Positions 4,935 through 58,207 of a stretch of DNA of 64,000 nucleotides are shown here, piece by piece. The stretch is from assembly GCF_002929495.1 (NCBI RefSeq), contig NZ_PJJJ01000026.1, forward strand, positions 29,256-93,255. The letters are read 5' to 3'. Numbering within the stretch: the first letter of the stretch is position 1; every line of letters starts with the position of its first letter. This stretch comes from Cryobacterium sp. Y82. Its GTDB lineage: Bacteria > Actinomycetota > Actinomycetes > Actinomycetales > Microbacteriaceae. A model generated the notes under the pieces. The model worked only from the letters and a program-made list of their open reading frames with translations, had not been told where the DNA came from and searched no databases. The translations under genes and the position numbers were made by a program.

Positions 4935-5734
4935 CGGTCACGACGTTCCTCGGCCACGGAGTTTCCGCCATCGACGACGAGCACCTGCCCGGTGACATAG
5001 GCCGCTCCGGGCGAGGCGAGAAAGGCGATGACGGATGCGACCTCTCCCGGCGTACCGCTACGGCCAGCCGGTACGAGCGCACCTTCCAGGGCCTCGCTCG
5101 TGAGTTGGGAGCCCGTCGCGATCCAGCCGGGGGCAACGGCGTTGGAGGTGATGCCCAACTCAGCCTCATCGACGGCGAGGGCCCGGGTCAGACCGACCAA
5201 GCCGGCCTTGGCCGCGGCGTAGGCAACGTCACCGCGGCTCGCCATGATCGTTCCGCTCACGCTCGATACCGTCACGATGCGGCCCCAGCCGGCCGCGCGC
5301 ATGAAACCGATCACGACGCGCGTGGCGTGAAAGGCCGTGGACAGGTTGACGGCCAGGCCCCGATCCCATTCGGCGGGGCTGGTGAGAATGTCGCCGTGGC
5401 CCATCTCGGCGTCGCCGACGGCGACCATGCCGGCGTTGTTCACGAGAATTGTCGGCTCGTGCCCGCCCTCGGCGAGCGCCGCGTCCAACCCCGCAGCGCC
5501 CACGGCCGAGTCGAGGATGCAGATGATTCCGACGGCGTCGAGGCCGTCGGCGGTGAGTTCCCGCGCGCGGTCGAATACCCGCGCCGTCGTTCCGGTGAGA
5601 ATCACCCGGGCGCCGAGTTCACCGAGGATCCGTGCTGCAGCGAAGCCGATGCCGGTGGCGCTGCCCGCCCCGGTGACGAGCGCGGTGCGCCCGCCAAGGT
5701 CGAAGGCGGCCGGGAGCGGGCGTGCAGGAGTCAT
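4931..5734 (-). CDS. SDR-family NAD(P)-dependent oxidoreductase
   Basis: A 267-residue classical short-chain dehydrogenase. The cofactor loop is TGAGSATGIG, followed by NNAG and the catalytic S...Y-x3-K set in VSSVSGTIMASRGDVAY and AAAK. The C-terminus TGQVLVVDGGNS is typical of FabG-like enzymes. The start ATG is preceded by TAACCT and 6 nt (5741-5746), the leaderless pattern. It stands alone between convergent and codirectional neighbours. The substrate cannot be deduced. Confidence 0.9.
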   Translation of the reverse strand: MTPARPLPAAFDLGGRTALVTGAGSATGIGFAAARILGELGARVILTGTTARVFDRARELTADGLDAVGIICILDSAVGAAGLDAALAEGGHEPTILVNNAGMVAVGDAEMGHGDILTSPAEWDRGLAVNLSTAFHATRVVIGFMRAAGWGRIVTVSSVSGTIMASRGDVAYAAAKAGLVGLTRALAVDEAELGITSNAVAPGWIATGSQLTSEALEGALVPAGRSGTPGEVASVIAFLASPGAAYVTGQVLVVDGGNSVAEERRDR

Positions 5735-54486: not shown

Positions 54487-55256
54487 AGCCGCCGAGGGTT
54501 GTATTGTTCGACCTCGACGACACCCTGTTCGCGCACCGCGCCGCGGTCGCTGACGGCATTCTGCTGCACCTCGACCGGGTCGGTGGCGCCTTCGCATCCA
54601 GCGACCGCACAGCGGCGACGGTGCTCTGGCATGCCCTCGAAGAGGAGCACTATCACTCGTACCTCGCTGGCGCCCTCACCTTTGCCGGCCAGCGCCGTGC
54701 CCGCGCCCAGGACTTCGCCGCCTCGTTCGAGATCGTGCTGACCGACACCGAAGCAGATCAGTGGTTCGACGAGTATTTCCAGAGCTACCGTTCTAGTTGG
54801 CGGCTGCACGACGATGCGCTCCCCTGCTTCGAGGAGCTGTCCGAGGTGATTCCCGCGGTGCGCTTTGGCCTCATCACGAACGGCGACCCTGTTTTTCAGG
54901 GCGATAAGATTCGTCGTGTCGGCTTGGGCGATCGGTTCGAGCAGGTCGTCACCTCGGGTGCGCTCGGCTTTGCCAAGCCCGACGCCCGCATCTTCGAGCA
55001 TGCCTGCGCGCTCTTCGGCGTGCCGGTCGAGGAGGCGGTTTACGTGGGAGATCGACTACGCACGGATGCCGTGGGCGCGGCCGCCGCGGGGCTGACAGGG
55101 GTCTGGCTCGACCGAGCCGGAGCATCCGCTGCCGCCGCTGCCGGCGTGGCCGCTGCCGCCGTGGCCGACACAAACGATGCCGCCCGCCTCGGAGTTCTTC
55201 GCATCGACACTCTCGCCAGCCTGTCGGGCCTGTTTGCCGCCCGTCTCGGGGCATAA
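54483..55256 (+). CDS. HAD-superfamily hydrolase
   Basis: A 257-residue haloacid-dehalogenase-like phosphatase. Motif I is VVLFDLDDTLF, motif II GLITNGD, motif III FAKPDARIF and motif IV VGDRLRTDAVGA. An Ala-rich tail (SAAAAAGVAAAAV) precedes the end. The stop codon TAA is part of the left arm of repeat element A, so the last codons LGA-stop were set by that element. Substrate unknown. Confidence 0.88.
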   Translation: MKPPRVVLFDLDDTLFAHRAAVADGILLHLDRVGGAFASSDRTAATVLWHALEEEHYHSYLAGALTFAGQRRARAQDFAASFEIVLTDTEADQWFDEYFQSYRSSWRLHDDALPCFEELSEVIPAVRFGLITNGDPVFQGDKIRRVGLGDRFEQVVTSGALGFAKPDARIFEHACALFGVPVEEAVYVGDRLRTDAVGAAAAGLTGVWLDRAGASAAAAAGVAAAAVADTNDAARLGVLRIDTLASLSGLFAARLGA

Positions 55257-55338
55257 CTCCTGCAAATTGCCAGCTGTGCTCGTCGAGGGCCCGAATTGCG
55301 GGCTTCTGTGTCGGCTCGCGCAAAATCTGCAGGAGTTA
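55254..55338. repeat. 85-bp inverted-repeat element A
   Basis: TAACTCCTGCA at 55254-55264 and its inverse at 55328-55338 bound an 85-bp element. A central hairpin GCCCG-AATTG-CGGGC sits at 55289-55303. The left TAA is the stop of the HAD gene, and the right one, on the minus strand, is the stop of the DUF559 gene. It may also act as a bidirectional terminator. Confidence 0.85.
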
Positions 55339-56340
55339 CGCGCCACGGATGCCCGCTGCCTGGGCGATGCTGAAGACTCGGGGGCTCCCATGCGGGCAAA
55401 TGTCGACGAGCTTCTGAAGGGCCCGAAGTACGCCTTCCGGATCGAACATGATGTCCTGATAGAGCACGCGGAGTGTCACATAGCCGAGGGCTGCCAACAA
55501 ACGATCTCGGGTGCGATCGCGAATGTGCTCCTCCCAGGTTTTGTGGTGACTCTGACTGTCCGCCTCAACGACTACACAGCCCTCAACCAGTATGTCGACC
55601 CGGCCGACCCTGTCGATGTACACCTGGATGTCGCAGCGGTACCCGGCGGAGCGTAACAAGTCGCGAACGACGGACTCTTGGCCTGCATCCACTCGTGCGT
55701 CGATGCGGGAACGAAGACCGCTGTGCTTATCGGGGATATGGGCGAAGATCTCATCGAGGTCGGCTAGCCGAATCTTGTGCTCGTGTAGAGCTGTGTCGAG
55801 CGCCGCCAAAGCGAAGCGAGGTTCCTGACACTGGATAATCTGGGCGAGGGCGTCACGGGGCCCGACGCAGTATTCGGTGCCATCCGCGCTGTCGATGAGC
55901 GGCCACCAGTGCAGCTCGACGCCGTCCCGCGGCGCGGCAGCCAGCGGAACGTGCCGACTTTGGGGGCTACGCAGACGGGATGCCTCCCGCGGAATGTGCA
56001 CGTGCGTAAATTGCGAATCGAAGGCAAAAAAACCGATCTCCCGGGCCGCCGATACGCACGCTTCGCGCCCACCGACGCGAACCGCCTCCAGGGTGTGGCG
56101 GTCAGTTTCCGGCAACGCATAATGATCGCGACGCACTCGGATGAGCGTGTTGCTACGCACTGCTGCCGTGATGTGTTTGGGTCGCATGCCGCTGTTCAAT
56201 AAGTCCTGTCGGCTGACGATGCGGCACTGGCCAGCCTGGGAGGTGAGAAATGGGTTCATGCAGACGATCGTCGTCATTGTCCAGTCACTGTGACCTCCCC
56301 GCAACCAATCTGGGGACAGCGCTTTGAGCCGCCTGTGCAT
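55336..56340 (-). CDS. DUF559 (Vsr-like) endonuclease-fold protein with AbiEi-like N-terminus
   Basis: A 334-residue protein. The N-terminal RIVSRQDLLNSGMRPKHI and IRVRRDHYAL resemble the winged-helix domain of AbiEi-type proteins. The C-terminus carries the DUF559 PD-(D/E)XK core: GRVDILVEG (Asp), VVVEADSQSHH (Glu, Asp, His), RDRTRDRLLAALGY and TLRVLYQDIM. Catalytic-type residues are intact. AAGGAAGA five bases before the ATG at 56340 supports this start. Base composition looks lower in GC than neighbours. Elements A, B and C flank it, and its stop lies inside A. The real role is unknown; related genes are often called type IV toxin-antitoxin or very-short-patch-repair proteins. Confidence 0.82.
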   Translation of the reverse strand: MHRRLKALSPDWLRGGHSDWTMTTIVCMNPFLTSQAGQCRIVSRQDLLNSGMRPKHITAAVRSNTLIRVRRDHYALPETDRHTLEAVRVGGREACVSAAREIGFFAFDSQFTHVHIPREASRLRSPQSRHVPLAAAPRDGVELHWWPLIDSADGTEYCVGPRDALAQIIQCQEPRFALAALDTALHEHKIRLADLDEIFAHIPDKHSGLRSRIDARVDAGQESVVRDLLRSAGYRCDIQVYIDRVGRVDILVEGCVVVEADSQSHHKTWEEHIRDRTRDRLLAALGYVTLRVLYQDIMFDPEGVLRALQKLVDICPHGSPRVFSIAQAAGIRGA

Positions 56341-56389
56341 AACTCTTCCTTGGTTACTCTTCCATTCCGCACCTAACAAGTGGGGCGCG

Positions 56390-56475
56390 TAACTCCTGCA
56401 ATCTCTGCCCCCGTTCGCAATCTGGCCCGGAAACACGCGGGTCGACCGGACCACGACATCAATTTGCAGGAGTTA
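56390..56475. repeat. 86-bp inverted-repeat element B
   Basis: TAACTCCTGCA at 56390-56400 and its inverse at 56465-56475. The central hairpin is CCCG...CGGG around GGAAACACG. Flanks on both sides read GCG before the TAA. Confidence 0.85.
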
Positions 56476-56560
56476 CGCGTTCGGGTCATCGCCGAGTGAC
56501 GCCGGTCACCCAAAGGGCCCTCGAGCCGGATTCACGGATCGCCGGGCGCACACCGGGGCA

Positions 56561-56646
56561 TAACTCCTGCAAATTGCAGGCGTTGTAGTTGAGAACCGCG
56601 AAAACACGGGCCTACAAAAATTCCACGCGGCAAATTGCAGGAGTTA
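56561..56646. repeat. 86-bp inverted-repeat element C
   Basis: TAACTCCTGCA at 56561-56571 and its inverse at 56636-56646, both preceded by GCA when read outward. The left arm extends into a small palindrome CCTGCAA-A-TTGCAGG. The central segment CCGCGAAAACACGGG aligns by position with the hairpin of element B. It lies 46 bp past the glpK stop. Confidence 0.85.
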
Positions 56647-56692
56647 TGCGGCCAGGCAGAGAAGAAGCGCCCGGCGTTCAGAGGGGTGAGGT

Positions 56693-58207
56693 CTACCGCA
56701 CGTCGTCGTCTACCCAGTCGAGGGTCTTCGTTACGGCTTTCTTCCAGTTGCGCAAGAGACGAGCGGCTTCCTCTGGATCCAGGGCAGGCTCCCAGCGGGA
56801 GTCCTCCTGCCAGTTGGCGCGGAGGTCGTCGAGCCCGCTCCAGAAGCCGACCGCGAGGCCGGCCGCGTAGGCGGCGCCGAGCGCGGTGGTCTCCGCGACG
56901 ACCGGACGAACGACGGGTACGCCGATGATGTCGGCCTGGAACTGCATGAGCAGGTCGTTGGCCGTGGCACCACCGTCGACCTTCAACTCGGTCAGCGGCA
57001 CCCCGGAGTCTGCGTTGACCGCATCGAGCACCTCGCGGGTCTGATACGCGATGGCCTCAAGCGCAGCACGGGCGATGTGGCCCTTGTTCACATAGCGGGT
57101 GAGCCCCACGAGCGCTCCGCGGGCGTCCGACCTCCAGTACGGAGCGAACAGGCCGGAGAAGGCCGGCACGAAGTAGGCTCCTCCATTGTCGGTGACCGTC
57201 TTGGCCAGCTCTTCGATCTCGGAGGCATTCTTGATGATGCCGAGCTGGTCCCGCATCCACTGCACGAGCGAGCCGGTGACGGCGATCGAACCCTCGAGCG
57301 CGTAGTGCACCGGGGCGTCGCCGAGCTTGTAGCCCACGGTGGTCAGCAGCCCGTTCTTCGAGTGGATGATGTCGGTTCCGGTGTTGAAGATCAAAAAGTT
57401 ACCGGTGCCGTAGGTGTTCTTCGCCTCGCCTTGGTCGAAGGCAGCCTGGCCGAAGGTCGCGGCCTGCTGGTCGCCGAGGATTCCGGCGATCGGCACCTCG
57501 CGCAGCAGGCTGTGTCCGCTTGCAGTGCCGTACACTTCTGAGGACGATTTGATCTCGGGCAGCATCGACTTCGGCACATTGAAGATGGCTAGGATCTCAT
57601 CGTCCCACTGCAGGGTTTTCAGGTCCATGAACATGGTGCGGCTGGCGTTGGTGACGTCGGTCGCGTGCACGCCTCCCTCGGTGCCGCCGGTCAGGTTCCA
57701 GAGAACCCAGGAGTCGGTGGTGCCAAACAGAAGGTCGCCGGCATCCGCTTTGGCGCGGGCGCCCTCGACGTTTTCCAGGATCCAGACGATCTTGGTTCCG
57801 GAGAAATAGGTGGCCAGCGGTAGGCCGACCGTCGCCTTGAACCGGTCGACGCCGCCATCCGCTGCCAACCGGTCGACGATCGGCTGGGTGCGGGTGTCTT
57901 GCCAGACGATGGCGTTGTAGACGGGCACACCGGTGGTCTTGTCCCAGACGACAGCGGTTTCGCGCTGGTTGGTGATGCCGACGGCTTCGATGTCGTGGCG
58001 GGTGATATTTGCCTTCGACAGCGCTTGGCCGATGGCCTCACGGGTGTTGTCCCAGATCTCTTTCGGGTCATGTTCGACCCAGCCGGCCTGCGGCAGAATC
58101 TGTTCGTGCTCAAGCTGACCGGTCGAAATAATCGACCCGGCCTTGTCGAAGATGATCGCGCGGGAGCTCGTGGTTCCCTGGTCGATGGCGAGGATGTACT
58201 TGGCCAT
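56693..58207 (-). CDS. glpK: Glycerol kinase
   Basis: A 504-residue FGGY kinase that phosphorylates glycerol to sn-glycerol-3-phosphate. [15 protein letters not shown] is the ATP-binding start, with [37 protein letters not shown] and the C-terminal [26 protein letters not shown] precedes the ATG. It follows glpF by 83 bp on the same strand. Confidence 0.97.

Follow-up and report, generated by a model that had tools for sequence, protein, structure and literature searches.

A Vsr-like nuclease gene and dispersed palindromic elements in Cryobacterium as a probable REPIN/RAYT-like partnership

Three short palindromic elements surround a gene for a DUF559-domain protein in a 64,000-nucleotide stretch from the cold-living bacterium Cryobacterium sp. 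Y82 (contig NZ_PJJJ01000026.1, positions 29,256 to 93,255; hereafter the window), and the question raised by this locus is whether the gene and the repeats belong together. We give a probability of roughly 60% to the reading that the resident nuclease gene and palindromic elements throughout the genome form a cognate, REPIN/RAYT-like system built on an unrelated nuclease, with an AbiEi-type helix-turn-helix (HTH) and a Vsr-like domain. Comparison between genomes shows that the arms of the elements follow the nuclease lineage and that interiors diverge within lengths that stay near 75, 86 or 97 bp. Orthologous sites keep their arms, and related elements occur as units at unlinked sites. The partnership is real, apparently selected and lineage-specific, and would be RAYT-like in behaviour, not by enzyme. 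From the sequences we infer that the nuclease may bind, cut and copy the elements.

The 11-mer TAACTCCTGCA has exactly six exact copies in the window, plus a one-mismatch copy at position 5723. None of 100 shuffles contained as many as these seven matches (at most one mismatch; shuffle mean 0.30). A preliminary description of this DNA had read the six invariant copies as three inverted pairs of 85, 86 and 86 bp, and these positions and lengths were exact on recheck; the 85-bp spacing between B and C and the AAACACG common to both are also present. The features, in window coordinates, are as follows.

55254..55338, no strand: element A, a palindromic element of 85 bp in the gap between the convergent HAD-like and nuclease genes
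55289..55304 (approximate), no strand: central GC-rich palindrome of element A, equal to positions 35-50 of the 86-bp consensus
55336..56259, minus strand: nuclease gene, encoding 307 aa when read from its ATG at 56259
56390..56475, no strand: element B, 86 bp, upstream of the nuclease gene
56561..56646, no strand: element C, 86 bp, on the glpK side, 85 bp past B
56693..58207, minus strand: glpK (glycerol kinase), a locus marker in other Cryobacterium that lies outside the system

The ends of element A supply TAA stop codons for both convergent reading frames, and an alternative upstream GTG at 56454 would lengthen the nuclease to 372 aa. Its neighbours, glpK and a HAD-like hydrolase gene, were both named by reading their translations.

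Across 57 Cryobacterium genomes the nuclease subfamily occurs as clade A in 22 (397-691 bits) and as clade B in 15 (270-297 bits; 47-55% identity), with both clades in genome G001 and the next match at 135 bits. We applied a blind flank test that looked for inverted pairs of 66-104 bp with arms common to both sides of a gene within two mismatches. Loci were picked by protein match and not by repeats, and ties between arm matches were settled in favour of the pair most alike in length. The test was passed by 67 of 99 DUF559-type loci (orthologous loci among them are not independent). As controls, 255 other genes drawn from an 800-kb part of G010 gave two passes, and base-shuffling the first 75 loci gave none in 375 shuffles. 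Both control passes belong to another repeat family, GAGCCGTGAG. By match score, 20/22 clade A genes passed, 20/27 loci at 230-300 bits, 20/31 at 140-230 bits and 7/19 below 140 bits. At 60 of the 67 loci the elements on either side are within 0-2 bp of each other in length; at the other seven they are 9-12 bp apart, and differences of 3-8 bp do not occur. With up to five mismatches allowed over two arms, all 22 clade A genes are flanked on both sides by A-type elements. That the elements flank a gene with a DUF559 domain (28.2 bits, cut-off 20.6), which the preliminary description had linked to them from proximity, is therefore an association that reaches beyond proximity.

The clades, about 50% identical as proteins, mostly differ in their arms, TAACTCCTGCA for A and TAACTCAGGA for B, and have equal element lengths. 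Nine of the 15 clade B genes have GGCTAACTC-type arms nearby (GGCTAACTCAGGA in full) and G021 has a close relative of that arm; the other five carry variant arms, CTAACTCCGG in G001, GGCTAATTC in G014 and G074, and GTTGCTACTTC in G016 and G017. Most elements at clade B genes have the 86-87 bp geometry. Exact A-type pairs average 13.7 in genomes with a clade A gene (n = 22) and 3.2 in those without (n = 35; Mann-Whitney U test, p = 5.6e-6). Exact B-type pairs average 3.9 with a clade B gene (n = 15) and 0.26 without (n = 42; Fisher test, p = 2.9e-4), the B pattern having longer arms, so that A-type and B-type counts are not comparable to each other. The sister species G008 (allele A) and G064 (allele B) have 27 A-type and no B-type pairs, and none and eight, respectively. 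Two predictions made from gene flanks were tested. The motif GCTACTTCAGGA from beside the G016 and G017 genes forms pairs in G016 (10) and G017 (1) and in none of the 55 other genomes, and GGCTAATTCAGGA from beside the G014 and G074 genes forms 14 and 8 pairs there, its highest counts. The arm motif thus appears to follow the nuclease allele more than the species.

A GlpK match lies beside the gene at 20 of 22 clade A loci and 11 of 15 clade B loci. We set aside the idea that the gene is cargo moved by its elements on account of this frequent neighbour (31/37 loci overall). On a GlpK tree of 28 rows, which left out rows with matches under 200 residues or none, the A/B label needs nine changes, six of them forced by well-supported branches; shuffled labels need 8.5 on average. 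Because the alleles are so patchy on this tree, shared ancestry alone fails to explain the match between motif and allele. Alleles at the glpK locus seem to have been exchanged repeatedly between species, with element sets following.

In the whole Y82 genome TAACTCCTGCA has 50 copies, 25 forward and 25 reverse, against 0 and 1 for a reversed-motif control. Pairing yielded 35 pairs, from which six were set aside as secondary pairings, leaving 29 elements, 26 of them outside the window. Their lengths are 86 bp (18 elements), 87 bp (nine), 85 bp (one) and 75 bp (one). Since the single 11-mer was searched without a length limit and pairing allowed 61-151 bp in all, this fixed length is no artefact of a narrow pattern. 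Over all loci, exact-arm pairs of 22-220 bp have lengths of 74-77 bp (29), 81 bp (1), 84-90 bp (174), 96-98 bp (3) and 128 bp (1), the tails being under-sampled because many loci were gathered with patterns admitting about 66-100 bp. The clusters near 75, 86 and 97 bp are steps of about one helical turn. Near-constant length, already remarked on for the three window elements, is supported and appears selected. In a scan of named genomes, the matches listed (80 of 116 stretches) were mostly from Cryobacterium, with a few from Lacisediminihabitans, Rhodoglobus, Microbacterium and other Microbacteriaceae or Actinomycetota, and included a C. suzukii record with the same three elements. Exact arm pairs were found in no stretch of IMG/VR contigs. 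The protein is rare on plasmids (3 of 72,556 records, 29-30% identity) and on phages (1 of 50,697 records, 25.5% identity).

Orthologous sites show which parts of an element persist. At the locus L036, a DNA search matched 57 of 57 genomes, and of 30 loci compared 29 had both flanks; an element is present in 19 of these 29 species and missing in 10. Fifteen of the 19 have perfect arms, three have one mismatch and one has three, and 17 are 86-87 bp long (the others 78 and 98 bp). Arm-pair mismatches number 0-1 in 18 loci, three in one, and at least six, or no match, in 10, which leaves few decaying forms. Among 14 filtered 86-bp elements at this locus, identity is 97.4% in the arms, 73.1% in the centre and 48.5% in the interior; the corresponding values for six elements at the locus L028 are 98.5, 79.6 and 63.0%. 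Loci with more than 500 bp between flanks or with a missing flank were left out of both sets. Because arms are near-identical and interiors diverged at orthologous sites, selection probably acts on arms and length. At L028, 18 of 30 loci had both flanks, six of them occupied (G000, G009, G031, G013, G014, G035) and 12 unoccupied, including G010 and G036. Variation between occupied and unoccupied sites among species is thus seen at both loci.

Several smaller observations concern these and similar sites. In several species terminator-like hairpins with A and T tracts are seen by eye where the element is missing (L359, L360, L364 and L368 at L036; L328 at L028); L328, L364 and L368 have GCGAGAGCGCAAAAAGTGCCCGATTGA in common, possibly another repeat family. 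When G000 is compared with G010, the similarity stops about 50-60 bp from two elements (L033, L035) on one side and does not resume on the other side in the G010 sequence compared. An intergenic site that flank matches suggest to be one and the same holds an 86-bp A-type, a 75-bp A-type or a 75-bp B-type element according to species (L020, L068, L226, L040, L094, L119, L108, L062, L137, L046, L049), which suggests reinsertion or in-place recoding. At the L036 locus of G012, L370 combines B-like outer bases GTGGCTAACTC with A-like next bases CTG and is a possible recoding intermediate. In L348 and L349 an extra single arm (CATAACTCCTGCAA / CATAACTCCTACAA) adjoins a full element and is likely a remnant.

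Related interiors at unlinked sites were found in G065, G061 and G008, where best scores are 0.64-0.74 for unlinked elements and 0.90 for neighbours, and shuffled maxima are 0.59-0.64. Nine related pairs were tested: in seven the flanks do not match, in one they match over 102 bp, and the remaining pair are neighbours; by eye, the similarity ends at the element boundaries. G000 has one related pair (0.71), inverted and separated by about 5 kb, and mean interior identity without the centre is 0.33 over 406 pairs. We take the related pairs to point to dispersal of elements as whole units at some past time. Near-identical copies in G016, considered as a fresh burst, were rejected as such: they belong to a 1.84-kb repeat at four loci (L444-L447, L454-L457), 93-96% identical, with the element at or near one end and the start of a DUF222 gene inside. 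Flanks are available for 211 distinct elements. Intergenic positions account for 174 of them (tandem 92, convergent 64, divergent 18), and the other 37 overlap open reading frames (ORFs) predicted with a simple GC-frame caller. The 305 control gaps of at least 100 bp divide into 150 tandem, 81 convergent and 74 divergent, as counted with the same caller. The elements avoid divergent gaps.

The protein combines an AbiEi_4-like N-terminus (22.0 bits, under the curated cut-off of 25) with a C-terminus that matches MTES_1575 just below its cut-off (37.9 against 38.2 bits) and DUF559 above it. Pfam matches up to E 1 were to MTES_1575, DUF559, AbiEi_4 and UPF0102 only, with no HUH/Y1 tyrosine nuclease (Y1_Tnp) among them. 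No AbiEii nucleotidyltransferase toxin gene adjoins the gene, the neighbouring ORFs being glpK and the HAD-like hydrolase. None of the 11 aligned proteins departs from E195, D222, E232, D234 or H239, residues that we take to be catalytic. An AlphaFold model from 11 sequences is good in the C-terminal half alone, where a helix (193-204), three strands, a second helix (242-257), a strand and a helix form an alpha-beta-beta-beta-alpha-beta nuclease fold. The nearest folds are 3hrl and the homing endonuclease I-Bth0305I (3r3p), with target-normalised TM scores of 0.73-0.78. By profile and modelled fold, the C-terminus is a PD-(D/E)XK/Vsr-like nuclease-type domain with putative cutting or nicking activity.

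The arms of the elements consist of TAACTCCTGCA, extended inwards by AATTTG-like bases and outwards by GC(A/G), and the 86-bp class has a central palindrome at positions 35-50 with the consensus cCgCG.aATt.CGgGg. Nineteen non-redundant B-type 86-bp elements have a similar centre at an equal position. Many B-type elements (L402, L410, L411, L416 and others) carry by eye a GCACTGGTCC-like centre instead of GGAATTCC, a possible subfamily. The 75-bp class (L040, L041, L085, L094 and others) is without the CCGCGG centre and has, by eye, A/T-rich blocks about 10 bp apart, a spacing that suggests bent or wrapped DNA.

The preliminary description had proposed a hairpin at an equal offset in each element as a selected structure. 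The equal offset stands, as a palindromic centre; a selected hairpin is not supported, since the paired positions lack covariation. Over 89 non-redundant 86-bp elements, symmetric positions pair at 0.307 in the interior against 0.298 expected and at 0.511 in the centre against 0.516 expected. The bases adjoining the arms (positions 11-17) pair slightly more often than expected (0.571 against 0.527, reached by 3 of 400 permutations), an excess confined to two of the five length sets, A-86 and B-86. Pairing between the arms themselves, which hardly vary, may still occur. No Rfam match to the element was found up to E 1 and no U-tract follows the arms, the outer bases being mostly TGC/CGC (27 of 29 own elements tabulated). 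With no Rfam match and no covariation in interior or centre, a selected hairpin or RNA is unsupported. We read the element as a probable double-stranded DNA site with arms and centre in helical register, not as a full-length selected hairpin. A strand polarity suspected in G000 disappeared once the centre proved symmetric, and integron attC-like sites were set aside on the distribution of the elements, which are mostly single and scattered.

A mechanism for the proposed cognate system could begin with the AbiEi-type HTH of two or more protomers binding both arms on double-stranded DNA, in helical register, so that the bound protomers would meet at the central palindrome. The Vsr-like DUF559 domain might then nick or cut the element or a target, and this could lead to rare copying to new intergenic sites. 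The elements might in addition be of use to the host, for instance by standing in for terminators at the ends of genes.

Several results weigh against the cognate system. The preliminary description had proposed looking for inverted pairs across the genome and for empty sites in relatives; the elements are scattered, near-fixed in length and enriched at DUF559-type genes, but no clean empty site was found. No precise empty site or target duplication is visible in the aligned loci, whose species are strongly diverged, and the clearest absences (G010, two loci) take out more than the element. The G016 copies, lying within the 1.84-kb repeat, are no proof of element-only movement. The flank test failed at 32 of 99 loci, 12 of them among the 19 most distant. 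Presence alone of A-type elements is weakly tied to the gene (20/22 against 24/35 genomes, Fisher p = 0.06) and less sharp than the counts, because elements also occur without the gene: genomes with neither clade A nor clade B gene still have elements, 15 A-type in G068 and eight in G063. Pairs of GGCTAATTCAGGA also occur, one to four each, in 10 other genomes, and the GCTACTTCAGGA element predicted for G017 is a single one. The HTH half of the AlphaFold model is poor, and Foldseek gave no matches at E 0.001.

Two other explanations are about equally unlikely. The elements could be operators, with an AbiEi-type HTH regulator looping DNA over fixed helical turns and a nuclease domain that is structural or active only on release. 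The promoters of AbiEi and Rv2827c contain inverted repeats, with gaps of 3 and 13 bp, to which these proteins themselves bind (PMC7319586). Elements stand both before the start and after the end of clade A genes, and arms are kept at single sites. Against operators are the presence of elements downstream of the gene, the avoidance of divergent gaps (18 of 174 intergenic elements) and the invariance of E195, D222, E232 and H239, presumably catalytic, in 11 of 11 proteins. Alternatively, the elements may be host-functional sites (terminators, insulators, or sites for nucleoid organisation or supercoiling) whose binding partner the nuclease became without spreading them. In four of the 10 element-free L036 species the gap holds, by eye, an ordinary A/T-tract hairpin terminator, and the few decaying forms there and the scarcity of divergent gaps fit the same picture. 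Three observations speak against it: no U-tract follows the arms, interiors shared between unlinked loci suggest a spread of the elements, and occupancy is patchy among closely related species.

An addiction or decoy arrangement is improbable. Here the free nuclease would be harmful, many cognate sites would titrate it or mark self DNA, and site loss would be counter-selected. The conservation of arms at scattered sites agrees with this, as may the resemblance of the HTH-nuclease fusion to joined antitoxin-type and toxin-type domains, but relatives with the same allele differ several-fold in sites (21 exact pairs in G000, six in G010). That these are ordinary miniature inverted-repeat transposable elements (MITEs) of an unrelated DNA transposon, with the nuclease a bystander, we consider very improbable: they are short, dispersed, mostly intergenic inverted-repeat elements, yet the arm motif tracks the nuclease over four motif types in Cryobacterium, interiors within G000 are mostly unrelated despite near-perfect arms, and the aligned loci of these strongly diverged species show no target duplication.

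Among nuclease genes that coexist with a set of non-autonomous palindromes, the best known is that of REPIN/RAYT, in which RAYT genes are flanked by their repeats. The Cryobacterium locus resembles it in having a single resident nuclease gene with dispersed extragenic palindromes, and in the gene standing at one locus flanked by repeats (22/22 clade A genes with mismatches, 20/22 in the strict test). Here, as described for REPIN/RAYT (PMC8049555), genomes that have the gene contain more elements, and elements remain in genomes that lack it. The likeness to REP/RAYT drawn in the preliminary description, with a different class of nuclease, is therefore supported. In contrast to RAYTs, the DUF559-type protein has no HUH/Y1 transposase domain. 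Its elements have a greater length, mostly 75 or 85-87 bp, and combine arms in helical spacing with a palindrome at the centre. Vertical inheritance is described for RAYTs (PMC8049555), whereas the alleles of this locus seem to have passed from species to species. TnpA-REP recognises single strands in folded form (PMC8266576), whereas no sign of a selected single-strand hairpin was seen here. REP palindromes are also marked by an adjoining GTAG/CGTC tetranucleotide tag (PMC3733652).

AbiEi-type antitoxins (AbiE, Rv2827c) share the AbiEi_4-like N-terminus, below the curated cut-off here, and the binding of inverted repeats, whose gaps differ by 10 bp between the two systems (PMC7319586). They differ from the present case in its DUF559/MTES_1575 C-terminus, its genome-wide sites and its neighbours, which are glpK and a HAD-like gene and not an AbiEii-like toxin gene. 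The Vsr-like/EDxHD homing endonuclease I-Bth0305I (3r3p) and the endonuclease-like protein 3hrl resemble the C-terminal fold (target-normalised TM 0.78 and 0.73), whereas here the nuclease-type domain is joined to an HTH and associated with dispersed palindromes. In Neisseria, Ssn nucleases of the GIY-YIG type reportedly form another pairing with a dispersed repeat; they have a different fold and act on single strands. No published description of the nuclease-repeat pairing was found, subscription papers and most preprints lying outside the search. Titles and opening lines of abstracts on DUF559 mention no repeats, and the passages seen of surveys of repetitive extragenic palindromes (REP) contain no relevant nuclease or Microbacteriaceae. 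Nothing relevant was found in searches on actinobacterial REP/RAYT, Cryobacterium or Microbacteriaceae palindromes, repeats linked to nucleases, Vsr-like or AbiEi repeats, or MTES_1575.

More tentatively, and with the chances somewhat short of even, the AbiEi-HTH/DUF559 proteins common in actinobacteria may constitute a separate class of repeat-managing nucleases. Each would recognise a lineage-specific palindrome on double-stranded DNA at whole-turn spacings, dispersed and maintained chromosome-wide, and replacement of the allele would turn over the element set. If true, this would be an independent counterpart to REPIN/RAYT with another nuclease fold and DNA architecture. It would give a job to a large protein family, some members of which are annotated as AbiEi-family antitoxins, and would make the recognition sequence of each nuclease predictable from its flanks. 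Sister-species pairs with swapped specificity would then be natural material for the study of repeat-population turnover.

The GAGCCGTGAG family of the control genes in G010 (L311, L312; contig C10, about 87,290-88,890 and 100,150-101,340) is composite, with up to four half-sites at offsets of 0, 21, 65 and 96 or 0, 31, 75 and 96, so that spacings again change by about 10 bp from one variant to the other. A 294-codon frame, the second longest in its stretch, is flanked by two further copies of this repeat and has a weak match to MTES_1575 (16 of 38.2 bits, E 0.013).

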